DNA of 64,000 nt from Oscillibacter ruminantium GH1. GTDB taxonomy: Bacteria; Bacillota; Clostridia; Oscillospirales; Oscillospiraceae. The DNA lies in assembly GCF_000307265.1 (NCBI RefSeq), contig NZ_DF158897.1:591411-655410 (forward strand). The letters run 5' to 3'. Position 1 is the stretch's first letter. Each line of letters opens with the position of its first letter. Shown in pieces: positions 1-10,739 of this stretch. Position numbers and translations under genes: made by a program. The notes beneath the pieces are model-generated. The model searched no databases, was not told the origin of the DNA, and was given only the letters and a program-made list of their open reading frames with translations.

Positions 1-499
1 GGTCGAATATGGTAACTAGGCATGTGCACTTGATATACTGTTTAACCATCAACTTAATATCTGCTTTTATTACACTCATTTTAAAGAAGTTTTTTTCTTT
101 TATACCCAAATAAATTGACTCTCCAATGATATAGATATAAGCAATCGAAAATATAATTATCATGATGATTACAGTTGCTGTTACGTTATTACCTGCATAA
201 TAAATCCGTGCTGGAATTAAGAAAACAGTTAACATTAATAACTTGCTATCTCCAGCAGCCCAGATATGTAGAGCATAAAATGCAATGGATATAGCCATCA
301 TTACAGCAAGATTCAAGGCAAAAGCTATAACATAAACTTTGGCAAATATCGTGTAATATATGAGATTTCCTATCAGTCCTAACATAGCTGTAACAAAAAG
401 CACTTTGTTTTGTATTAATCCATGCCTAATGTCTGTAACTGTGACAAAAATACAAGTGTAAATTAATAACGTTATAAGAAAAGCTTCATTGATGACCAT
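1..499 (-). CDS. A24 prepilin peptidase-like membrane protein (3' end outside window)
   Basis: About 166 residues are visible and the gene continues past base 1. It is almost entirely hydrophobic, with roughly five to six membrane segments. Two motifs match the paired catalytic aspartates of A24 (CpaA/TadV-type) prepilin peptidases: DIRHGLIQN (Asp23) and AAGDSKLL (Asp84). Known A24 enzymes cleave class III signal peptides of pilins or pseudopilins at the inner face of the membrane. The start is ATG at 499, one base after the TAG of the HxsD-like gene, so the two are probably translationally coupled. No pilin-like gene is visible, so the substrate is unknown; it may lie to the left. Family assignment rests on the two motifs and topology. 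Confidence 0.65.
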   Translation of the reverse strand, partial: MVINEAFLITLLIYTCIFVTVTDIRHGLIQNKVLFVTAMLGLIGNLIYYTIFAKVYVIAFALNLAVMMAISIAFYALHIWAAGDSKLLMLTVFLIPARIYYAGNNVTATVIIMIIIFSIAYIYIIGESIYLGIKEKNFFKMSVIKADIKLMVKQYIKCTCLVTIFD

Positions 500-500
500 A

Positions 501-857
501 CTATTTATCATACTTATCAAACCAATTAAATAAGATGTCCTCTGACTTTATAGTTTCATCGTCAATAAACCCTGTGTCAGAATCATCAACAATGGTAGAA
601 GCAAGGGCTCTACCGATTATTAACTCTCTAATATTTTTTGTTTGTTGCATTACACCATACCTTGCAGTTTGTGTAATAACCTCGTTTATAAATTCTTTTT
701 CTACGTTATTTTCTACATTATCCTCTTTTGCCCCAATATCTATGTAATAATATTTTTCATCAGTATCTAATGACATATAGTACTTTTCTGTGAAAAAATA
801 TGATGCCTTTACGATGGCTTCTTTTGGATATATTTCTTTTGTAAGTTTAATTCGCAC
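501..857 (-). CDS. HxsD-like protein (His-Xaa-Ser peptide system component)
   Basis: This 118-residue protein starts at GTG with a GGGAG site upstream. It resembles HxsD in length and layout: an N-terminal KASYFFTEKYY segment (18-27) followed by a central FINEV..QTAR block (56-66) and a helix with T..IRELIIGRAL (73-85). HxsD proteins accompany radical SAM maturases in His-Xaa-Ser peptide (RiPP) systems, where their exact role is not settled. Here the gene sits 72 bp after the AlbA_2 gene and 1 base before an A24 peptidase-like gene. No radical SAM gene is in view; it could be to the left of base 1. The match is by pattern recognition, so a distant unrelated family remains possible. Confidence 0.55.
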   Translation of the reverse strand: MRIKLTKEIYPKEAIVKASYFFTEKYYMSLDTDEKYYYIDIGAKEDNVENNVEKEFINEVITQTARYGVMQQTKNIRELIIGRALASTIVDDSDTGFIDDETIKSEDILFNWFDKYDK

Positions 858-929: not shown

Positions 930-2489
930 CTAAAATATAATTGGGTCTATATCATACTTAGTTAAAACCTGTATTCTTCTTTCTACCTCTTCTCCTTCTG
1001 GAGGGGCAGCAAAGGTTCCCTTTACCTTCTTGGTAGTACCATCTGAATATTTCATAATAAATTCCCAATTATACTCACTACGAACTTTTACTGTATAATC
1101 GGTTTTCCACTCTGTTGTAATAGGTTCAAGGAAATTCAAAAAACCCCTAATCCAATACTTATCAACTTTATACTTGAATACTTGCTCTGACTTTTTATCA
1201 CTCTTGTTGAATAGCGAATGCCTAACTGTTCCATTTTCATGTATATCTATCTGTTCTTTAGCTACATTTTCTCTGCCTAAAATCGTCGCGGAGCTACTAG
1301 TGACCTTAACAGATATAATCCTTTTTACCTCAATACCTTGCCGCCTTCTACGATAATCAAATAGAAATCTATTGAAAGCAAATCCCGTAATGAGTTTATT
1401 GGTAACGTCCTTTATTTCTAACTTGTTATTTGAACTGATAGGGTAGCTCCTCAATTTCGCATCATCTATATATTGGTTAACTATTTCAGGGTTACACTCT
1501 ATAGTCTGATGGAAATTCTCTTGGTCTGTTTTATTATCAAAATAAAGCACTACTTCATCAAATCTATATCTTGCCATCCTTTCTTCTTGATTTTCTTCAT
1601 CATACAGAAACTGTTGTATGGCAAAATCTATGCTATCTTTTAACATATACCTATAATCAAATAACGTTTGTGTCTTGTAAACCGAGTCATGTATAAATCC
1701 CCATTCTGGGGCAGGTGTACTATACTTACCACTGTCCAATGTCACTATTTCAAATTGTTTTAAGACTGTTTCTCTGCACATTATTTTCAACGTAGCAAAA
1801 CTGGTACTCTCATTACATTGATTATAAGAATAGAAAGGTCTATTGTCATGTCGCCTATCATCATCGTCCCATTCTTTAACCAGCTTGAAGTCAGGATTAT
1901 ATATGTTATAGTACGTGTCCTCAACTTGTTCCCACTCAATCTTATTCTTCAGCCTGTTGACAATTTGCTGCAAAGGGGGATTCAAAAGGCCAAGTCTTTT
2001 CTTCCAAAGCAATTCAATTTGACCCATAGGGCTATTCTCAGTGATTGGAGTGTTTCTATCGCCAGTTCTAGAATAGATATAACCGAATTGAAGCTCATTA
2101 CTTCTCTTAGGTGTAGACTTTAAGTAATATGGAACATCAAAAGAATTATGTATTGTTAAAACATCGACCTCTTTACCAGTTATTTTAATTGTTTCTAAAG
2201 AGATGCTTGGGGTCAAATCCCCTGCAAAGACTGTGCTATGTAATAGTGTTAAGATATTTTCCTGATTCTTTCGATTAGGGCTATCATCAGAAAGTCCTAT
2301 AATCTCGCCATTATCTGCAACACCTATAATGATATAACAGTCTTCATTATGAACTGTGTTTGCAAAACAGAGAATATCATGCAGCAATTTACCGTTATTA
2401 CTATGCCATTCCTGCTTATAGTCCCAATAGTCACCTTCGGATTTTTTCTCAATAAGTCTGCAAATCTTATAATAAGTATCTCTGTTTAT
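930..2489 (-). CDS. AlbA_2 (Schlafen-type) domain protein, apparent ATA start
   Basis: If translation starts at 2489, the product has about 519 residues. The N-terminal AlbA_2 (Schlafen) domain shows KSEGDYWDYKQEW (16-28), CFANT (41-45) and IIIGVADNGEIIG (53-65). No ATG, GTG or TTG lies between the in-frame TAA at 2492-2490 and the TTG at 2387, yet that TTG would cut the domain in two. An AGGGGG ribosome site (2503-2498) sits 8 bases before an ATA codon, which is the best start candidate. The remaining 450 residues I do not recognise. AlbA_2 proteins include nucleic-acid-binding regulators and tRNA/RNA-cutting Schlafen relatives. The gene follows the helicase by 30 bp, suggesting one operon. 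A mutated start (ATG to ATA) is the alternative. Confidence 0.7.
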   Translation of the reverse strand: MNRDTYYKICRLIEKKSEGDYWDYKQEWHSNNGKLLHDILCFANTVHNEDCYIIIGVADNGEIIGLSDDSPNRKNQENILTLLHSTVFAGDLTPSISLETIKITGKEVDVLTIHNSFDVPYYLKSTPKRSNELQFGYIYSRTGDRNTPITENSPMGQIELLWKKRLGLLNPPLQQIVNRLKNKIEWEQVEDTYYNIYNPDFKLVKEWDDDDRRHDNRPFYSYNQCNESTSFATLKIMCRETVLKQFEIVTLDSGKYSTPAPEWGFIHDSVYKTQTLFDYRYMLKDSIDFAIQQFLYDEENQEERMARYRFDEVVLYFDNKTDQENFHQTIECNPEIVNQYIDDAKLRSYPISSNNKLEIKDVTNKLITGFAFNRFLFDYRRRRQGIEVKRIISVKVTSSSATILGRENVAKEQIDIHENGTVRHSLFNKSDKKSEQVFKYKVDKYWIRGFLNFLEPITTEWKTDYTVKVRSEYNWEFIMKYSDGTTKKVKGTFAAPPEGEEVERRIQVLTKYDIDPIIF

Positions 2490-2519
2490 TTAAAACACCC
2501 CCTAATTGAGAAACGTTTT

Positions 2520-5234
2520 TTATTCAATCTTTAAAGTATTCTTACAACTTGGAAAATTGGTGCATCCATAGAAAGGACCATATGGTCCTTTTCTTTTCGT
2601 CATATACCCTCCACACACTGGACACACTATTTGGTCATTCAGAATCTTAATATCACTTAAAGTACAATCACAAGCAGGAAAGTTGCTGCAACCTAAGAAA
2701 CTGTTTCCTGCAGTCTCATTTGTTCGTACCACTAAATGTCCCTTTTTGCATTTAGGGCAATTAGGATTATCAGTTACCGTCTGTTGTTCTGATAGTGTTT
2801 CATACTTAATTCCAAAATCTTTTATCAATTCTTCTACGAAAACAGATTTTTTCTCGTCTGGTGCAAGGAGGTATGTTGTATTTTTGGTTCTGGTTAATGC
2901 AACATAAAATAATCTTCGCTCTTCTGCAAAAGCAAATGTATCCAAATCAGTAAGCACCAAAGATAATATAGGGTCATCTGATATTTTGTTTGGAAAACCA
3001 ACAAGTTTATTCTCCAAATTGATTATTATGACATTATCTGCTTCCAATCCCTTAGACCTATGCGCAGTCAAATAAGTTATCTTCAGCTCTGGATATGCCA
3101 AATATTTAATCACCTTTTGACTTTTTGTTTTCTTAAGTTCAAACTCCTGACTCTCCTCAAGGAAGTCTATATCGAAGTTGTTCCTACCCAAAATGGTTAA
3201 CTCGGCATCCTCTCCAAAATTATACACAATTTCATCAATGGCCTTCATTATTGCAGGGCATAAGTCCTTATTGTACCCTATGACCCTTATTGGATTGCTA
3301 TGGTGCTTATCTGATTTCAAATCCTTTTTAAGTTGCTTTGGATTCTTCATAACAAGTTTACCTGCTATGTTTATCAATTCTTGAGAGTTTCTATAAGTCT
3401 TTTCAATCTTCAACAGTTCATAATAGCCGACAGCCTGTCCAAAGTTGGTAAATAGGTCAATATCACTTCCAGCAAATCTATATATCGATTGCCAATCATC
3501 TCCCACACAAACTAGCTTGGCATCGGTCCTTTTCTTTATCTCTCTAATTAAATTAAACCTGCTCAATGAGATGTCTTGGTACTCGTCAATAATAATATAC
3601 TTATAGCTGAACTCACCTTTTCCGTCTTTTACGACTTCTGTTGCTAGATTTATCATATCATTAAAATCTATTCTTTCAGATTGCTGTAACTTTTCCTGAT
3701 ATAGCTTATAAATCGGTTCTACAATATCTAAAAAAATTAAGCTCCTATCTCTAAGAAACAAGTTGTTAATACCAATGACTTGCTTATGTAAGCTATCAAA
3801 AGCCTGCAAACTATAGCCATTTGATTTATAAAGGTTTATAAAAGAACTTATTAGTTTCTTAAATTCAGTCAGATATTTGTTTTTCTTTTGAAAAAATATT
3901 TGTTTATATATTTCAAAGAAATCTACTTCCTTAAATTCCACATTGACTGCTTTTAGCTTTTCTTCGAGTTCTGATAACAGCCTGCCCTCCCGATTGTAGT
4001 AAGAGTAAGTTTCAATGAGAGTAGTGTTATTTTGCTTATGAAACCCTTGTTTCCACCTCATATCATCAATATATTTCTCTTCTTCAATTTTTGATAACCA
4101 GGGGGTTTTATTATCTTTTGTAATTCCAAAATGCTCTATGTAAATATCAAAATCAGGTAAGTAGAAATCTGGTCTGTAGCTTTTTCTGTATTTGTCTGGT
4201 GATTCATATGGATATTTGGCCTCATATTCATAATTAATACCATTAAGAAATAGAAAATTAGCTATAATTACTTCTTCCAGGCTTTTTACAGTTTCACCAT
4301 GCAATGTCTGCCGATTAACTTTGAGTGAATCAGCAAGACTTTCAACTTCTTCTTTATTATTTTCTAGCTTACCTTTTATAGTTTCAAAATCTACCGTTCG
4401 GTAATAATCATAACAATCACCTAAGCTATCAAACTCTTCCCAATCTTTAGGTATGTTTAGGTAGTACCCAAAGAAGTTAATAATGTTTTGAATTTGCTTT
4501 TTATCGCCCATTAAATGTTCACTAAAATACTTATCAATTAACTGTGAAAGAAAATCATCTTCAACTACATCATACCTTTTGCCTCTGTTTTTTGTTATTA
4601 TTTCAAGACCCAGCTTGTGGAATGTCTTAGATTCTACCTGAATTTTTAGCTTCTTAGTGATTCTTTGGTTCATCTCTTCAGCTGCTTTGGCTGTGAATGA
4701 TATTAGCAGTATTTCTTGAGGTAAGACCCCTTTAACATCCACTAAATACTTAACTTTGCCTGAAATTGTTAGGGTCTTACCACTTCCAGCCCCAGCTAAA
4801 ACCAAGTTGTTTACTTCATCTACAACGACAGCTCGACGTTGCTGCTCATCTAATGACTTACCATCTATGTTGTCTAATAAAGCTTTGTTTTTGTCCAATT
4901 CGTTTTCAATGTAGAGCTCATTCCATTTCTTCACATAGCTTGATAAACTCAAGAATGTTTCTTTGAATTCGTCTAATCTCGAAAGCTTTAATTTTGTACG
5001 TGGTGACGTGCTAAAAAAGTCAAAGGTTTCTTTATATGTCTTTAAAAGCTCTTCTTCCGCTGGCTTTGTAAAATAATCCTTTTTCAATATGTCAATCTTA
5101 TTAAAAAAACTTTCTATTCGCTCTAATTCTAAAATAACAACAGGGTCTTTCTTTAGCTGATAAATTTTATAATAATAAATACAACCGCCAATGATGACCG
5201 AAGAAATGAGTAAAACAATAACAATGTCGGGCAT
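2520..5234 (-). CDS. Helicase IV (HelD)-like SF1 helicase with nuclease-like insert and zinc ribbons
   Basis: This 904-residue protein has an N-terminal membrane-like helix (4-22), Walker A AGAGSGKT (147-154), Walker B IIIDEYQD (547-554), motif III VGDDWQSIYRFAGSD (577-591) and motif VI FYVALTRTK (776-784), which together identify a UvrD/Rep superfamily 1 helicase close to helicase IV. Between the early motifs, RPDFYLPDFDIYIEHFG (354-370) has the D...E spacing of a PD-(D/E)XK nuclease-like fold. The C-terminus carries two topoisomerase-type four-Cys zinc ribbons (from C826 and C871). ATG at 5234 follows AAAGG. It sits between a small repressor and the AlbA_2 gene, which suggests a DNA-metabolism or defence role for the island; that role is inference. 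Confidence 0.88.
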   Translation of the reverse strand: MPDIVIVLLISSVIIGGCIYYYKIYQLKKDPVVILELERIESFFNKIDILKKDYFTKPAEEELLKTYKETFDFFSTSPRTKLKLSRLDEFKETFLSLSSYVKKWNELYIENELDKNKALLDNIDGKSLDEQQRRAVVVDEVNNLVLAGAGSGKTLTISGKVKYLVDVKGVLPQEILLISFTAKAAEEMNQRITKKLKIQVESKTFHKLGLEIITKNRGKRYDVVEDDFLSQLIDKYFSEHLMGDKKQIQNIINFFGYYLNIPKDWEEFDSLGDCYDYYRTVDFETIKGKLENNKEEVESLADSLKVNRQTLHGETVKSLEEVIIANFLFLNGINYEYEAKYPYESPDKYRKSYRPDFYLPDFDIYIEHFGITKDNKTPWLSKIEEEKYIDDMRWKQGFHKQNNTTLIETYSYYNREGRLLSELEEKLKAVNVEFKEVDFFEIYKQIFFQKKNKYLTEFKKLISSFINLYKSNGYSLQAFDSLHKQVIGINNLFLRDRSLIFLDIVEPIYKLYQEKLQQSERIDFNDMINLATEVVKDGKGEFSYKYIIIDEYQDISLSRFNLIREIKKRTDAKLVCVGDDWQSIYRFAGSDIDLFTNFGQAVGYYELLKIEKTYRNSQELINIAGKLVMKNPKQLKKDLKSDKHHSNPIRVIGYNKDLCPAIMKAIDEIVYNFGEDAELTILGRNNFDIDFLEESQEFELKKTKSQKVIKYLAYPELKITYLTAHRSKGLEADNVIIINLENKLVGFPNKISDDPILSLVLTDLDTFAFAEERRLFYVALTRTKNTTYLLAPDEKKSVFVEELIKDFGIKYETLSEQQTVTDNPNCPKCKKGHLVVRTNETAGNSFLGCSNFPACDCTLSDIKILNDQIVCPVCGGYMTKRKGPYGPFYGCTNFPSCKNTLKIE

Positions 5235-5284
5235 GGTCTCAACCTTTCTATATTAAAAAGTTCCTTATCACTCGAATTCATAAA

Positions 5285-5491
5285 TCACTTGATTTCAACT
5301 ATTTGTTCAACAGAAACTCCTAAGTGTATACATAGCTTTTCTATTGTTTTTAAAGAAACTGATTCATTTTCTTCTTTTTTAGCATTTAATTTAGACATAG
5401 TGTTCGGGGATATACCCAATTTCTTTGCCAACTGTGTCACTTCGATATTTCTGTCTGCTACCAATATTCTAAATGGCCTATATGAAATCAC
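5285..5491 (-). CDS. Small Cro/CI-type HTH regulator
   Basis: This 68-residue protein is essentially one Xre-family helix-turn-helix, with QLAKKLGISPNTMSKL as the DNA-reading part and VSLKTIEKLCIHLGVSVEQI as the usual closing helices (HTH_26/YozG-like). Translation starts at GTG 5491 after a GGGGG site. It is the first gene of the minus-strand series and lies 50 bp before the helicase gene, so it probably controls its own promoter and the genes behind it. AT-rich inverted TATAG/CTATA elements around 5580-5625 are plausible operators. Such small regulators are common in mobile elements. Confidence 0.85.
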   Translation of the reverse strand: MISYRPFRILVADRNIEVTQLAKKLGISPNTMSKLNAKKEENESVSLKTIEKLCIHLGVSVEQIVEIK

Positions 5492-5543
5492 TTGAGTACC
5501 CCCTTTGTTTCTTACAACTAAATCTTGACATCAATTTCTATAA

Positions 5544-5572
5544 TTATATACCTTTCTCCAAAATATTACAAT
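5544..5572 (-). promoter_or_regulatory. Promoter of the repressor-helicase-AlbA_2 series
   Basis: On the minus strand a -35 TTGTAA (5572-5567) is followed by a 17-base spacer and a perfect -10 TATAAT (5549-5544), about 55 bp before the repressor start. The spacing is ideal for the housekeeping sigma factor. AT-rich inverted repeats just upstream may bind the repressor. Confidence 0.7.
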
Positions 5573-5641
5573 TATTATATTCTAAATATAGAAATTTATA
5601 GTTAAAATATATAATTTTATAGCATTGTGTTATAAAAAAGC

Positions 5642-5680
5642 AAAGAAGGAAGGTATCCTTACAGATAACCTTCCTTCTTT
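5642..5680 (-). terminator. Rho-independent terminator
   Basis: A perfect long stem (AAAGAAGGAAGGTTATC paired with its complement, 6-base loop) followed on the minus strand by TTTGCTTTTTTAT. It ends the transcript of the unknown gene whose stop is at 5691. Confidence 0.85.
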
Positions 5681-5690
5681 AAGTTTCGAT

Positions 5691-6290
5691 TTATAGCAAA
5701 GGTTCTATTACCTTAGCTAAGTATAGCTCCATTGGATTCAAAACATCTTTATTCATTAACTCTAAAGTTCTAAACCACATATCCAAAATATACAGTCTGC
5801 TCGCTACTATGTTATGCGCCACTTTTATGCTTTTAATAGATTTTCTCTTATTATGCTTAATAATAATAATGTTTCTATCGCCTTTTGACCTATCAAGAGG
5901 TCTAAAGTCCATAGCATTGACAAGGCATAGGTCGTGGAGGGTCACTTTATACCCACGATAATAAACACCATCTAACTCTACATAAATCCTATCTTCTTTA
6001 ATTTTGGTGTATCCAATTTTGACTTTACCCTTTTCTGTGGGTATAAGACGTTGTTTCCCGTTAATCACATCTGACTCACGATGAATGGTTGTTGTATGCA
6101 CAACAACTGGTTTCGCCATGAGAATATAATTGTGGAAAGTCCTTTCACCTTGATTTTTTACCAAATCAAAAGCGCCCTGATAAAACTCAACAAACTCTTC
6201 ATTAGTAGTAATAAATGTTCTATACTTTGGTGTAATTGGATAAAAGTTCGGATTTCTGCAAACCACCATAAAAAATTGCTGTTTGCTCAT
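5691..6290 (-). CDS. Protein of unknown function
   Basis: I do not recognise this 199-residue protein. The ATG at 6290 has a GAGG site 7 bases upstream and is preferred over the upstream TTG that would extend it by 14 residues. The product is basic and soluble, without membrane segments or a signal peptide. Central features are repeated Ile/Lys-rich strands (NIIIIKHNKRKSIKSIK) and a C-terminal helical part. It follows the gene at 6361-6882 by 70 bp on the same strand and is closed by a strong terminator, so the two probably form one transcript and may work together. Confidence 0.7.
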   Translation of the reverse strand: MSKQQFFMVVCRNPNFYPITPKYRTFITTNEEFVEFYQGAFDLVKNQGERTFHNYILMAKPVVVHTTTIHRESDVINGKQRLIPTEKGKVKIGYTKIKEDRIYVELDGVYYRGYKVTLHDLCLVNAMDFRPLDRSKGDRNIIIIKHNKRKSIKSIKVAHNIVASRLYILDMWFRTLELMNKDVLNPMELYLAKVIEPLL

Positions 6291-6360
6291 CACTGGGCCT
6301 CGTTTCAATAACCTGGCGTTAGTAAACAACAATTCGTTATCTCTTTAAAGCCCGAAATAT

Positions 6361-6882
6361 CTATAATTTTTGCAAAGTAATAATATTTATATTATTGTAT
6401 TTGCTGCGAATATTTTCAACATGTTTTACCTTTGGATTTTTTGCATAGTAGACTACATATCGAAAAGCCGCTAACGTATTAGAATTAACTTTTGAAGTAT
6501 CTAACAGTAGCTTTCTGTTGCTATCTGGTGACGTTGATGCAAAGCACTCGCAAATGATGCTTTCATCTTCTGAAATAACATCATAACCAGATTCTGTACC
6601 AAAATTAACTATAAAACTGTGAGAGGGATGTTTTGTTAAAAGAATTTCTACTGCTGCAAGGCACGTAAGATAGGTAAAAGTCTGATTTACTTGCTCAATA
6701 AAGTTTGTGCTATGATTAAATAAAGGGTCAAACCCACATTCTTCAAATTTAATCTTTTTTAGAAAGTCTATACCATCACCAGCTTGCAATAGCTCTCCCA
6801 GCTTAGAATTAGTCGTTTCAACAATCTGTTGCCGAAGAGAATCTATTTGCTCTTGGTTTCTAAATTCAATCTGTTTCTTCAC
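6361..6882 (-). CDS. Protein of unknown function, possible PD-(D/E)XK nuclease-like fold
   Basis: This 173-residue protein starts at GTG 6882 with an AAAGGATG site. I do not recognise a named family. The middle of the protein has FGTESGYDVISED followed by IICECFAST, that is, an acidic residue in one strand and an E-x-F pattern in the next, which resembles the active-site region of PD-(D/E)XK nucleases, although the conserved lysine is replaced by other residues. The N-terminal half is helical (QIDSLRQQIVE). It is the first gene of a two-gene unit with the unknown gene at 5691-6290. The nuclease link is a weak structural guess. Confidence 0.6.
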   Translation of the reverse strand: MKKQIEFRNQEQIDSLRQQIVETTNSKLGELLQAGDGIDFLKKIKFEECGFDPLFNHSTNFIEQVNQTFTYLTCLAAVEILLTKHPSHSFIVNFGTESGYDVISEDESIICECFASTSPDSNRKLLLDTSKVNSNTLAAFRYVVYYAKNPKVKHVENIRSKYNNINIITLQKL

Positions 6883-6965
6883 AAGTCACATCCTTTCTTG
6901 TAGAGTATCAAAAAACAAAATACATATAACGGACCAAATGGGTAGTTTTGGACTTCGTGTTATAC

Positions 6966-7433
6966 TTATTTGGCGGGGTGCTTTTCCATGATAAAGTTTG
7001 TAAGTTCTACACCATTACGAATGGCCTTGTTTTCACGGACAACATGATAACCGTGCTTTTCAAAAAACGGTTTGGCAGTAATAGAAGCGTGTGTAGTAAA
7101 AACGAAAACATCATGTGTAGCAGCCTGTCTCTCAAGTTTAGTTATAATCGCTGTGGCAATGCCCTTGTCTTGATAATCTTTGTGAATAAATAGCCTGTCA
7201 AGATAACCACTATCATCCATATCACCAAATCCCACAACCACGTTGTTTTCTTCTGCAACAAGTGTGTTGTGTTCTAAAAAAGATTTGTCCCAAGCATGCA
7301 TATCTATATTACCTGTTGCCCAAGCATCCAGTTGTTGCCTTGTATAATCTTTGGCATTAATTTCATGGACTGTGTTATAAAATAGTTTTGCAATCTCCAC
7401 ACAGTCTTCAGATTTGTATTTTCTTATATCCAT
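6966..7433 (-). CDS. GNAT family N-acetyltransferase
   Basis: The 155-residue product starts at ATG 7433 behind GGAGGAAGAGCTT and has the usual GNAT length. The acetyl-CoA-binding region is visible as LFIHKDYQDKGIATAIITKLE (about 90-110), a Q/R-x-x-G-x-A-like loop, preceded by VVGFGDMDDSGYLD and followed by FFEKHGYHVV. The N-terminus (MDIRKYKSEDCVEIAKLFY) resembles YafP-like acetyltransferases. The substrate cannot be inferred. It has AT-rich codon use like its neighbours and seems monocistronic. Confidence 0.85.
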   Translation of the reverse strand: MDIRKYKSEDCVEIAKLFYNTVHEINAKDYTRQQLDAWATGNIDMHAWDKSFLEHNTLVAEENNVVVGFGDMDDSGYLDRLFIHKDYQDKGIATAIITKLERQAATHDVFVFTTHASITAKPFFEKHGYHVVRENKAIRNGVELTNFIMEKHPAK

Positions 7434-8083
7434 AAGCTCTTCCTCCAAAAATATAAATAATCCCCTGTACACTATAACATAACATTACTCAACTTTTTAA
7501 TATACAGAAAATACCTTATCATTATCCTTACTGTTACCTTGTCTAAAACACATTGCCTACTAACATGTATCTAGTCATTTGAGGTGCAAATGAAATCAAT
7601 GTTTCCAGGTTCAAATTTGCATAAGAATTCGTCAAAAAAAGTCTGTATTTTTTTCAAATTTCAGATTTTTGGTTCTTTGTCCTTCTTGATTAGAGAGTAC
7701 CACACATTTAGCTGTTTAACATGCCATTCCGAAAAACCTTGATATATCAAGGTTTTTTGCCATTTTGCAAGCATGAATTTTGCTAATCCGTGACTCAGAT
7801 TTTCTAGCTATGTTGTGTTGCTACCTCATGGTTCTGTTTTGCCTTGTATTTATGCGATTTTAATGATTTCTTATACGTAAGAAGAGTGCCATATATAGAC
7901 ACCCCCTTATAGTAAAAATCTGAAATTCAAAATTTTTTTCTTCAGATTACTGTATCATACCTTAAACAAATTTTGAAGCAGTGTAGGAAGATTGTTGTAA
8001 AGTTGTAATAATTATAACTTACCCATTCCTCATTATTATACTATTCACTCTATACACACCTTTATAGATTATTTATACAAAAC
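7434..8083. other. 650-bp AT-rich gap with repeated motifs and palindrome
   Basis: No convincing gene is present. The stretch holds a motif with core TTTCAGATTTTT in direct orientation at 7648-7670 and its inverted copy at 7914-7939, plus a perfect 26-bp palindrome at 7732-7757. A third copy of the motif lies at 9976-9996 near the island end. The region is otherwise low in coding character and may hold decayed genes or recombination sites. Confidence 0.6.
7732..7757. terminator. Perfect palindrome, bidirectional terminator-like
   Basis: A perfect 26-bp palindrome (core CCTTGATATATCAAGG flanked by AAAAA and TTTTT) would form a terminator hairpin on either strand. A related but imperfect version sits at 10050-10066 beside the island junction. 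Confidence 0.6.
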
Positions 8084-8284
8084 TTATTTCTTAAAAATCG
8101 AATTCATTTTCTTTTTCGTATTCTCTTGTCTATTCTCTGTTTCATTCTCATTACACGAGATAGTTATTATACTACCCTCTTTTGCATTTTCAGGTATAAG
8201 GGTCTTCAGCATATTTACCATTGTACCATCTTCTAACTCGACAACAGCATATTCACCCTCAAACCTATCAATTATCACCTTCAT
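8084..8284 (-). CDS. DUF3006 domain protein
   Basis: This 66-residue protein begins at ATG 8284 behind AAAGGAG. The first 45 residues (MKVIIDRFEGEYAVVELEDG, then a LIPENAKEGSIITI segment) match the small beta-rich DUF3006 family, followed by a charged Asn/Lys/Glu tail. DUF3006 genes commonly follow ComEC-like metallo-hydrolase genes; here the gene indeed follows, by 15 bp, a remnant that looks like the end of such a protein (8300-8554). The function of the family is unknown. Confidence 0.8.
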   Translation of the reverse strand: MKVIIDRFEGEYAVVELEDGTMVNMLKTLIPENAKEGSIITISCNENETENRQENTKKKMNSIFKK

Positions 8285-8299
8285 ATTTCTCAATCTCCT

Positions 8300-8554
8300 T
8301 TACTTAGGCGGATTACACCTTGAACAAGGTGTTAAACCCATACTTTGTGCTTCGGATACAGTTGTTTCTATACTACTCTTTAAATAAGGACAATCAGCAT
8401 TGTGATACTTTGTCCCTGTCTTTGTCCTATAAACTACAGCAGTATTATCAGTTGTAGTAGATTCTGTTTTTACATTGTTTTCTTCAACAACAGTAGGTGT
8501 AGGTGGGGCATTTGCTTGTATAAAACAACTGACTTCTTTAATCTCACTGCACCA
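8300..8554 (-). pseudogene. Remnant of a ComEC/metallo-hydrolase-like protein C-terminus
   Basis: An 84-codon open stretch with no usable start (TGA at 8557-8555) encodes a Thr/Asn-rich linker and a C-terminal domain with TKTGTKYHNADCPYLKSS and LTPCSRCNPP. This Cys-His metal-ligand module is typical of the ends of secreted ComEC-like hydrolases and nucleases in Firmicutes. The rest of the gene is missing upstream, where the HNH remnant begins, so I read it as the tail of a gene cut by a deletion or insertion. The following DUF3006 gene retains its normal position. Confidence 0.65.
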
Positions 8555-8575
8555 TCAACCCCAATCAAAACTATT

Positions 8576-9470
8576 TTAGTACAATATAGTCTCCACGTCC
8601 AAATCAAATATCTCACCAATTTGTTCACATAACCAGTTAAATCTATCTTGTACTGATTCCTCATTCCACTGTTTTTTATAAGTACTTGCCATGTAATCAT
8701 TCACAATTTTTTGAGAAATTTGGTATACAGTTACTTGCCCCTGCTTGGTTACTGTCTTTTTACCGTTCTTATCTAACCCTTGATAAATAAAGATTTTCTC
8801 ATTGAAAGGGAAGTTCTGTGCTGCCTTATTCTTTGTACCACTCAACAAAGTCAAATTACCTAAAGTGTTTAGATACTGACCACCCTTAGGGAACATTTTC
8901 AACCATTTACTATTCTCTGCAGGTGTTTGTGGGTATACATGCTCAACATTCAGAGACTTGTAATCAAGAGAGATAAAGGAAACCTCATCTTCATCTGTCT
9001 GATAATACTCAATTACAGCAAGGACAGCTTTTAACCAACCTTCATAGTAAACCTCACCCTTCAGCTTACTTAAAACCTGTTGTTTTGTATTCATAGCATT
9101 TAACTTATCTTCCATTATAGCTTTTAAGCTATCAACAGAATCTTTGTTTTTAATGCCAATAAGGATATTGAAAAGAGTTTGTTTTAAACTATTTAACGTA
9201 ACCCCTGCTATGTAATTCAAGAAGAAGAAATTCCTTAAAGCTAACTGCAATTCTTCTTTATCGAGGTATTTTACGTGTTCTGCTGCTATTAACATAGTTG
9301 CCCAATACGAACCCCAAGGTAAATAAGGTAGGTATTTTTGCATCTCCTATATAATCTGCAAAAATATCCCTTATCAGATAGTCCAATGTGGTTGTAATCA
9401 AAGATGCTTGGTCATTTCTCACGTCACTTGTAAAAGCCCAATTATTACACAAGAATCGTAAAATCAAACT
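8576..9470 (-). pseudogene. GmrSD-like (DUF262/DUF1524) restriction protein remnant, HNH end
   Basis: The 255-codon frame ending at 8576 contains SLNVEHVYPQTPAENSKW and LGNLTLLSGTKNKAAQNFPF, the DUF1524 HNH-type signature at the C-terminus of GmrSD modification-dependent restriction enzymes. The N-terminal DUF262 part is absent. Just upstream, related sequence continues in a different frame (9350-9470, with VRNDQASLITTTLDYLIRDIF), indicating a frameshift near 9315-9345, and then ends. The TAG directly before ATG 9343 and lack of a proper ribosome site argue against a real start there. It is a decayed defence gene. Confidence 0.7.
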
Positions 9471-10049: not shown

Positions 10050-10105
10050 CCCCTTGAAATCAAAGGATTCCTAAACCATGAGCAAGCTAAACAACATAAG
10101 CAGAT
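10050..10105. mobile_element. Right junction of the island with comM
   Basis: Host codons of comM are read on the minus strand through the conserved HNLLM motif, ending about 10,095-10,105. Past this point the sequence turns AT-rich and the frame runs LFSLLMV to a stop at 10,071. A hairpin (10050-10066) lies just inside the island. The point of insertion precedes the Walker A codons. The left junction and any integrase are outside the window, so element size is at least 10 kb. Confidence 0.75.
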
Positions 10106-10739
10106 TGTGTCCGCCTGCCGCGGCGATCTCCAGCGCCCGCTTTACGTTTTCCTGTCCCATCACGTCCCGCAGGTCCGGTAAATCCTCTGCTTTCTCCTCC
10201 GGGGACCAGCTTTGGGCGGGGGAGAGGGGCAGTTCGCCCCGGAGATGGGCCACCAGCGCGCCCACGTCCGCCACGCCGTAAACCGCCAGGCCCCCGGCGA
10301 GCGTGGCCTCGGCGGCGTTTTCCGCCGGGACGAACAGGGTAGCGATCCCCGCCTCCTTTGCCGCCAGCGCCATGGGCAGCACGCCGGAGACGCCCCGAAC
10401 CGCCCCGGTGAGGGACAACTCCCCCAAAAATGCCGCATCCGCCGGAATCTTCTTCAATTCCTCCGCGGCGGCCAGAATTCCAATGAAAATGGGCAGGTCA
10501 TAAACCGTTCCTGCCTTTTTCTGATTGGCGGGGGCAAGGTTCACCGTAATGCGGCTGACGGGAAATTTTACCCCGCAGTTTTTCACCGCCGCCCGGACTC
10601 GCTCCCGGGCTTCCCGCACGGCGGCGTCGGGCAGTCCCACGATGTCAAAAGCGGGCAGTCCGCCGGAGAGAAAACACTCCGCGCCCACCTCGTAACCCGC
10701 AATGCCGTTCAGACCCAGAGAACGGACGGATACCACCAT
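10071..10739 (-). pseudogene. comM: comM (yifB) 5' fragment, disrupted by island insertion
   Basis: The 222-residue frame begins like every ComM/YifB Mg-chelatase-like AAA+ protein (MVVSVRSLGLNGIAGYEV), with GLPDAAVREARERVRAA and VNLAPANQKKAGTVYDLP, and ends at GGHNLLM, directly before where GPPGSGKS (Walker A) is expected. The intact family has about 500 residues. The last seven codons are island sequence. ComM is a branch-migration helicase that extends strand exchange in natural transformation, so this copy cannot work unless the island excises. GGAGGTGGGCTC precedes the ATG at 10739. Confidence 0.9.

Follow-up and report, generated by a model that had tools for sequence, protein, structure and literature searches.

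Introduction

The His-Xaa-Ser (Hxs) system, which was reportedly predicted by Haft and Basu in 2011, is encoded by a cluster of genes whose expected product is a histidine-rich surface protein bearing chemical modifications. To our knowledge, the function and the processing of His-Xaa-Ser proteins have been open ever since that prediction. The closest described relative of the locus studied here is the HxsA3 branch of this system, for which NCBIfam holds the families NF038309 (HxsA3), TIGR03976 and NF038315 (HxsD and HxsD-like proteins), TIGR03977 (HxsC) and TIGR03978 (HxsB). Our locus shares with this branch HxsA3, the HxsB and HxsC enzymes and HxsD, and its relatives contain a second small HxsD-like frame. 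It differs in the presence of an A24-type gene; NCBIfam names no A24 family for the branch, and the seven classic loci on plasmids that we analysed are devoid of such a gene.

Short, non-methylating A24 enzymes (TadV/CpaA and the archaeal FlaK/PibD) have in common with the Hxs A24 protein the PF01478 domain, the D...N and GD-x-K motifs with both aspartates, and the many helices seen in the model of the Hxs protein. The latter differs from them in its length of about 345 amino acids, with a long C-terminal half, and in that no pilin, ATPase or PilC-like gene was recognised beside it at the window locus. The leader of Flp prepilins (PF04964) contains an acidic run ending in Gly, as does that of HxsA3 (L-W-K-D-E-E-G versus F-L-Y-E-E-E-G), whereas HxsA3 lacks Glu5-Tyr6, shows polar or basic residues before its hydrophobic segment and has an A-x-A-like site after it. 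A dedicated protease beside a modified precursor is in turn a feature shared with RiPP systems. In the part of a 2023 review on RiPP leader proteases available to us, the headings comprise cysteine, serine, metallo and additional families, the membrane proteases known include the M50 enzyme EpeP and AgrB, and the terms A24 and pilin have 0 occurrences (PMC10885120). A search by terms of the literature available to us found no paper joining Hxs and an A24 protease; the neighbourhood may possibly be known to NCBI curators.

In the present study we find that an A24 gene regularly belongs to the HxsA3 branch, and that at least some systems of the HxsA4 type have it as well. A first-pass annotation of this DNA had known of no described system joining HxsD and A24. 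This does not hold, as HxsD is a component of the known His-Xaa-Ser system, in whose HxsA3 branch A24 is regular.

Results

The HxsD and A24 Genes Are Part of a Complete His-Xaa-Ser Operon

The window, that is the whole stretch of 64,000 nucleotides under analysis (G000:C2:591411-655410, G000 being the genome of the window), begins with the last two of the following genes, whose order below is that of the sequence from left to right:

L002:10004-11056, DUF5050 protein, next to HxsA3
left of base 1, - strand, HxsA3, 152 aa, with H-x-S repeats (NF038309, 121.4 bits, cut-off 65)
left of base 1, between HxsB and HxsA3, - strand, MORN-repeat protein with an N-terminal hydrophobic stretch
left of base 1, - strand, HxsB (TIGR03978, 502.7 bits, cut-off 370)
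left of base 1, - strand, visible part of HxsC (TIGR03977, 309.6 bits, cut-off 267.9)
2..499, - strand, N-terminal 166 aa of an A24-type (GxGD) membrane aspartyl protease (PF01478, 28.9 bits, cut-off 26.5)
501..857, - strand, HxsD, 118 aa (TIGR03976, 80.3 bits, cut-off 50)

The reading of the two genes in the window as HxsD-like and A24 prepilin peptidase-like, made in the first-pass annotation from the sequence, is borne out by these matches, and the coordinates agree with a spacing of one base between the A24 ATG and the HxsD stop codon; an alternative A24 start, TTG at 520, would lead to an overlap with HxsD. The window HxsD, which was aligned with 37 HxsD homologues, matches NF038315 more weakly (30 bits, under the cut-off of 41). 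The A24 frame runs from the ATG at 499 down to base 2 and past the window edge, the rest of the gene being located beyond base 1 inside a run of N, which adjoins the window and conceals both this remainder and the beginning of HxsC. Both catalytic aspartates are in the visible part, Asp23 in D-I-R-H-G-L-I-Q-N and Asp84 in A-A-G-D-S-K (frame P0001). In the search of the genome G000 with PF01478 the protein reaches 30.6 bits, and a profile of the long A24 type described below gives 164.8 bits despite the truncation.

Beyond the run of N, and on the same strand as the pair, come HxsC, HxsB, the MORN protein, HxsA3, a 48-aa hydrophobic peptide and the DUF5050 protein. The annotation had suggested reading the genes left of base 1 for a radical SAM protein and a short precursor with repeats, and both are there, in the form of HxsC and HxsB and of the 152-aa H-x-S repeat protein. 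The conjugation apparatus that it had considered as a possible neighbourhood speaking against its reading is not what surrounds the pair, and the profile support for HxsD, whose lack it had considered likewise, was obtained with TIGR03976. All features that mark an Hxs system in sequence, namely HxsD, the adjacent paired radical SAM enzymes HxsB and HxsC and a repeat precursor, were recognised by curated profiles. Thus, the first two genes of the window are part of a complete HxsA3-type His-Xaa-Ser operon, hxsD-A24-hxsC-hxsB-MORN-hxsA3.

A Low-G+C Island Splits a comM-Like Gene

The mobile-island setting proposed for the pair is supported by the G+C content, 0.26-0.35 in the island versus 0.52-0.61 in the flanking stretches, and by a comM-like gene that the island splits. 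The N-terminal piece of this gene sits at the right island edge, and the apparent missing part (GSPGSGKSM..., recognised by eye) at the left edge, at L002:5773 on the - strand. No integrase was found among those island frames scanned with Pfam. The features assigned on the island and at its right edge are the following:

window 930-2387, AlbA_2 (Pfam)
window 2520-5234, UvrD/Rep helicase with zinc ribbons (Pfam)
window 8576-9343, GmrSD_C (Pfam)
L002:8916-9785, Mrr_cat (Pfam)
10071..10739, - strand, comM-like gene, N-terminal part, ChlI plus start of Mg_chelatase (PF13541, 148.6 bits; PF01078 positions 1-28)

Defence-like genes are located on the island at window 930-9343 and at L002:6837-9785. 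The protein of window 5691-6332, for which there is no Pfam match, and that of L002:5925-6449 are alike by eye in a M-S-K-Q-Q-F... stretch, one in each island half, as if duplicated.

The A24 Protein Keeps the Active Site and Has a Long C-Terminal Half

Profile and active site both place the Hxs protein in the A24 family. Its Pfam match is modest: among six relatives tested with PF01478, those of L007, L023, L045 and L067 pass the cut-off and those of L006 (19.0 bits) and L057 (22.0) fall below it. NCBIfam contains no family for it (window piece and 5/5 relatives). A sequence profile of the protein reaches FlaK (3s0x) with an E value of 0.00089. The loss of Asp23 or Asp84 in homologues, which the annotation had weighed as evidence against its reading, did not occur, both residues being kept in 51 of the 51 readable rows among 52 homologues; in the alignment A6, whose rows share 16-42% identity with the first sequence, the two motifs have their D, N, G, D and K unchanged in 46/46 rows. 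The long C-terminal half shows conserved residues of its own, with E297 in 52/52 rows and a P-F-A-x-F motif, and the C-termini of L006 and L007 match Arc_PepC_II weakly (0.0055 and 0.016, respectively). The confident structure model of a relative (mf092f4cb08a5, L006:1152-2189; pLDDT 91.6) is that of a 345-aa membrane protein with many helices. With this model, Foldseek against the PDB retrieved no solved A24 structure (best E 1.1), and VIA-align gave no A24 chain among the rows listed.

The A24 Gene Accompanies HxsA3

Loci were sampled by HxsB similarity, from an alignment of 21 of 120 listed HxsB relatives; the best 80 of 583 confirmed loci on genome contigs and 8 loci on viral contigs were scanned, and thus distant HxsA3 systems lie outside the sample. 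The thresholds were at least 90 bits for HxsA3 (own profile), at least 150 bits for HxsC and at least 40 bits for A24. With a first A24 profile of 11 proteins, the window's own among them, a frame of about 345 aa was found beside HxsC in locus after locus. With the profile of the final count, which contains 14 of the counted sequences, A24 was present in 49/49 HxsA3 loci and in 51/51 loci with HxsC among those best 80 of 583, many of the A24-bearing loci coming from metagenome-assembled genomes without stated completeness. The pairing of HxsD and A24 is therefore beyond chance. The other 31 loci of the 80 have no HxsA3, and A24 was detected in four of them (L039, L048, L057 and L081) and not at the locus in the remaining 27; in L053 and L054, HxsB-like genes are present and HxsC, HxsA3 and A24 were not found. 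On viral contigs the single locus with HxsA3 has A24 (1/1) and the loci without HxsA3 are devoid of it (7/7), six of these seven bearing repeat precursors without the acidic-Gly motif described below. A gut contig with HxsA3 (L202) contains A24 at 296 bits.

In the HxsA3 loci the A24 gene directly precedes HxsC, and it follows HxsD in 47 of 49, which answers the co-occurrence check proposed in the first-pass annotation; in the two others (L010 and L049) HxsD is not present on the contig and the contig end truncates the A24 gene. The genes are arranged as D-A24-C-B, and MORN and HxsA3 either follow B or precede D; three main orders account for 23, 16 (including the viral L086) and 8 loci; in L044 the HxsA3 and MORN genes are inverted. 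In G144, whose locus is free of N, A3, MORN, B, C, A24 and D stand in a row. The hosts of HxsA3 loci include Bacillota, Eggerthellaceae (L040, L061) and a Spirochaetales bin (L067). Pairwise distances of A24 correlate with those of HxsB (r 0.873), HxsC (0.878) and HxsD (0.719), the value for HxsB against HxsC being 0.876 (49 loci, with L086 in and L010 and L049 out; 0/1000 permutations reached each r).

A long-type A24 profile (28 rows) was run against 398 genomes of the phylum. Some A24 match exists in 147 of these, and only two genomes score above 42 bits with the long-type profile, G144 (278.7 bits) and G000 (164.8 bits), the third best match (42 bits) covering the peptidase part alone; G000 and G144 are also the sole genomes over the HxsA3 cut-off among the 398. 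Classic plasmid loci, from Aeromonas, Paraburkholderia, Nostoc, Methylobacter, Novosphingobium, Adhaeribacter and Hymenobacter, have other leaders and no A24 (7/7); they were picked for taxonomic spread among 25 listed of 583 matching records, and the result refers to the plasmid loci themselves. Altogether, the A24 protein almost certainly belongs to HxsA3-type Hxs systems as a dedicated and functioning component.

As a separate observation, a second small HxsD-like frame (about 70 aa) is located between HxsD and A24 in 26/26 relatives examined with room for it, among them L007, L008, L009, L011-L015, L019, L021 and L023. It was profile-tested in L023, where NF038315 gives 68.6 bits. In the window there is no room between HxsD and A24 for such a frame.

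The HxsA3 Leader Resembles That of Flp Prepilins

The leader was analysed in a free alignment of 120 listed HxsA3 homologues (of 615 found) and of 51 locus rows; earlier pattern-based counts, with Gly, Ala or Ser preset at position -1, were the same. In this strain the leader comprises 22 residues. At the acidic motif HxsA3 reads D-F-L-Y-E-E-E-G, and Flp prepilins of the phylum show R-L-W-K-D-E-E-G and similar up to their Gly. The position -1 is occupied by Gly in 114 and Ala in 6 of the 120 homologues (50 and 1, respectively, of the locus rows), and -2 by Glu or Asp in 120/120 and in 50/51, with one Gly. Ala at -1 is also accepted by prepilin peptidases. Their preference at this position is Gly, according to the part of a review available to us (PMC4471445). 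The residues +1 to +6 are mostly polar, N-I-T/P/S-R-N-K, and are followed by a short hydrophobic segment; +5 is never Glu (N, S, K, G or Q in 120/120), and Gly is found at +11 in 120/120 proteins and 50/51 locus rows. The first repeat His lies at a distance of 28 residues from the motif Gly in 116 of the 120 and of 29 in 4. After the hydrophobic segment an A-x-A-like, i.e. signal-peptidase-I-like, triplet occurs within 6 residues of the first repeat in 120/120, by a permissive pattern.

A matrix built from 27 Flp leaders picked by eye has its best window at the acidic-Gly motif in 113/120 HxsA3 proteins. The background consists of 2789 frames, 39 HxsA3 frames included; 42 of them score at or above the median of HxsA3, and 122 at or above the 10th percentile. 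At an E value of 1 HxsA3 gives no Pfam match to Flp_Fap. Compared with the canonical class III signal peptide as described in the available part of the review, the HxsA3 leader does not conform (PMC4471445): it is hydrophilic, ends in Gly and with 22 residues here falls in the expected range of 6-26, but the run of about 21 hydrophobic residues straight after Gly, with Glu5, is missing, and after the hydrophobic tract, where no signal-peptidase-I site would be expected, there is an A-x-A-like triplet. Thus, of the pilin-like leader that had been sought near the pair, a Flp-prepilin-like acidic-Gly leader was found in HxsA3, and it is not of the canonical class III type. An unusual client would not be unheard of, since archaeal substrate-binding proteins bear prepilin-type processing sites, as stated in the part available of another source (PMC4371748).

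Leader and Long A24 Protease Occur Together outside HxsA3

Six HxsA4-type loci (L055, L057, L079, L080, L081 and L082) have a leader with S-E-E-G or S-E-E-A, and a long A24 match was obtained in 6/6 genomes with this leader. The scores are 250.6, 237.3, 112.6 and 110.2 bits in four of them, 52.1 bits in the genome of L055, where a C-terminal A24 piece lies at a contig end, and a weak 43.3 bits for a 404-aa frame in the genome of L079; L057 and L081 are themselves rows of the long-type profile, though both had first been noticed with earlier profiles. The A24 gene is on the HxsB contig in L057, L081, L079 and L082, up to about 13 kb away, the contigs of L079 and L082 having been identified by their equal lengths. 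In contrast, the two repeat-bearing loci without the motif (L062 and L070) gave no long A24 match in the whole genome (2/2), and classic precursors are also without the acidic-Gly motif. Altogether 29 genomes were searched, with a long-type match in 15 (including G474, the HxsA3 genome of L049), a short one only in 2 and none in 12; most of the remaining genomes show no recognisable precursor near HxsB and so count neither way. This co-occurrence of leader and protease, seen in few lineages, is the best argument for the putative cut site.

In the Delta-type and Elusimicrobia loci L147, L148, L150 and L152-L156, about four or more tandem genes with weak HxsC matches stand beside a long A24 gene. 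The first tandem gene in L147 is nearest HxsC4 (350 bits, under the cut-off of 500).

Discussion

The first-pass annotation had proposed a membrane protease removing the leader of a modified peptide. This part of its proposal stands as the best-supported reading; its suggestion of a system without any described counterpart does not. The A24 enzyme probably cuts HxsA3 after the acidic-Gly motif. In the route that we propose from the sequences, the radical SAM enzymes HxsB and HxsC, with HxsD helping, would first act in the cytoplasm and modify the H-x-S repeats of HxsA3, as expected from the known system. The short hydrophobic segment would then place HxsA3 in the membrane with the repeats outward, and A24 would cleave at the cytoplasmic face, C-terminal to the Gly or Ala of F-L-Y-E-E-E-G, releasing the 22-residue leader in the manner of TadV-type enzymes acting on Flp prepilins. 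Signal peptidase I may finally free the repeat domain outside at the A-x-A-like site before the first repeat, or the cut product may stay anchored in the membrane. The six mostly polar residues after the Gly, the lack of Glu5 and the class-I-like site point against the A24 cut. A broader reading seems to us evenly poised between being right and wrong: HxsA3 and HxsA4 systems would be the first case of radical SAM-modified peptides being matured by a GxGD aspartyl protease of the prepilin type. The precursor would either be cut on both membrane faces, on the inner one by A24 after the acidic-Gly motif and on the outer one by signal peptidase I at A-x-A, or stay anchored in the membrane as a histidine-rich subunit resembling a pilin.

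The class-I-like site within 6 residues of the first repeat in 120/120 proteins means that signal peptidase I could cut alone. It might then free the H-x-S domain by itself, the acidic-Gly motif serving HxsD or the radical SAM enzymes for docking and A24 cutting elsewhere, for instance after the almost invariant Gly at +11 or in a leftover signal peptide. RiPP leaders often bear enzyme-binding motifs, and the acidic-Gly motif also occurs in precursors of the HxsA4 type, for which A24 is sometimes not encoded nearby. However, classic Hxs systems use HxsB, HxsC and HxsD without the motif, the residue at -1 is limited to Gly and Ala, as prepilin peptidases prefer, and motif and long A24 are together in the six HxsA4-type genomes and both missing in the two others, so that we consider this account doubtful, if the most serious of the alternatives. 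It is distinctly improbable that the A24 protein serves Hxs as a factor for docking or insertion, with its protease activity left unused there. Its long C-terminal extension with conserved residues of its own, unlike short A24 enzymes, would suit such a role, whereas the invariance of D, N, G, D and K in 46/46 rows at such low identities is most simply explained by selection on catalysis.

The enzyme could also be a prepilin peptidase of the ordinary kind, working for a pilus or competence system encoded elsewhere in the genome and only travelling with Hxs. A T2SSF match exists in 35 of 50 A24-bearing genomes (a set leaving out those of L032, L049 and L050), and G000 itself contains a compact type IV pilus-like locus (L124, G000:C5:153000-172900) with a T2SSF match and, by eye, PilT-like and pseudopilin-like frames. 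The Hxs A24 protein is the only A24 match of this genome, and a side job for the pilus is thus possible in G000; in 28 of 41 genomes of its family there is no A24 match. The other 15 genomes are devoid of a T2SSF match, and in these, whose completeness is unstated, PF01478 has a single A24 match in 9, with frames that at 323-361 aa are as long as those of Hxs A24, two in 5 and none in 1 (G430). Moreover, the long type is absent from those of the 398 genomes of the phylum that have an ordinary A24 but no HxsA3, and A24 stands beside HxsC in every HxsA3 locus of the best 80 of 583. No canonical pilin motif was found in loci L006-L067 with a pattern that finds 23/30 Flp loci, and no pilin, traffic ATPase or PilC-like gene was recognised beside A24 at the window locus. 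We therefore regard pilus service as the sole function of the enzyme as very improbable.

Preferring the cut of HxsA3 by A24, we can name a likely protease for the HxsA3/HxsA4 branch, with a cut site predicted to the single residue. If true, prepilin-type aspartyl proteases join the enzymes that mature modified peptides, and our finding suggests that the clientele of bacterial prepilin peptidases is wider than pilins.

A DUF5050 protein is located, as in the present locus, near eight other HxsA3 loci (L014, L023, L024, L025, L033, L036, L043 and L126), and by this recurrence it may be a part of the Hxs system.
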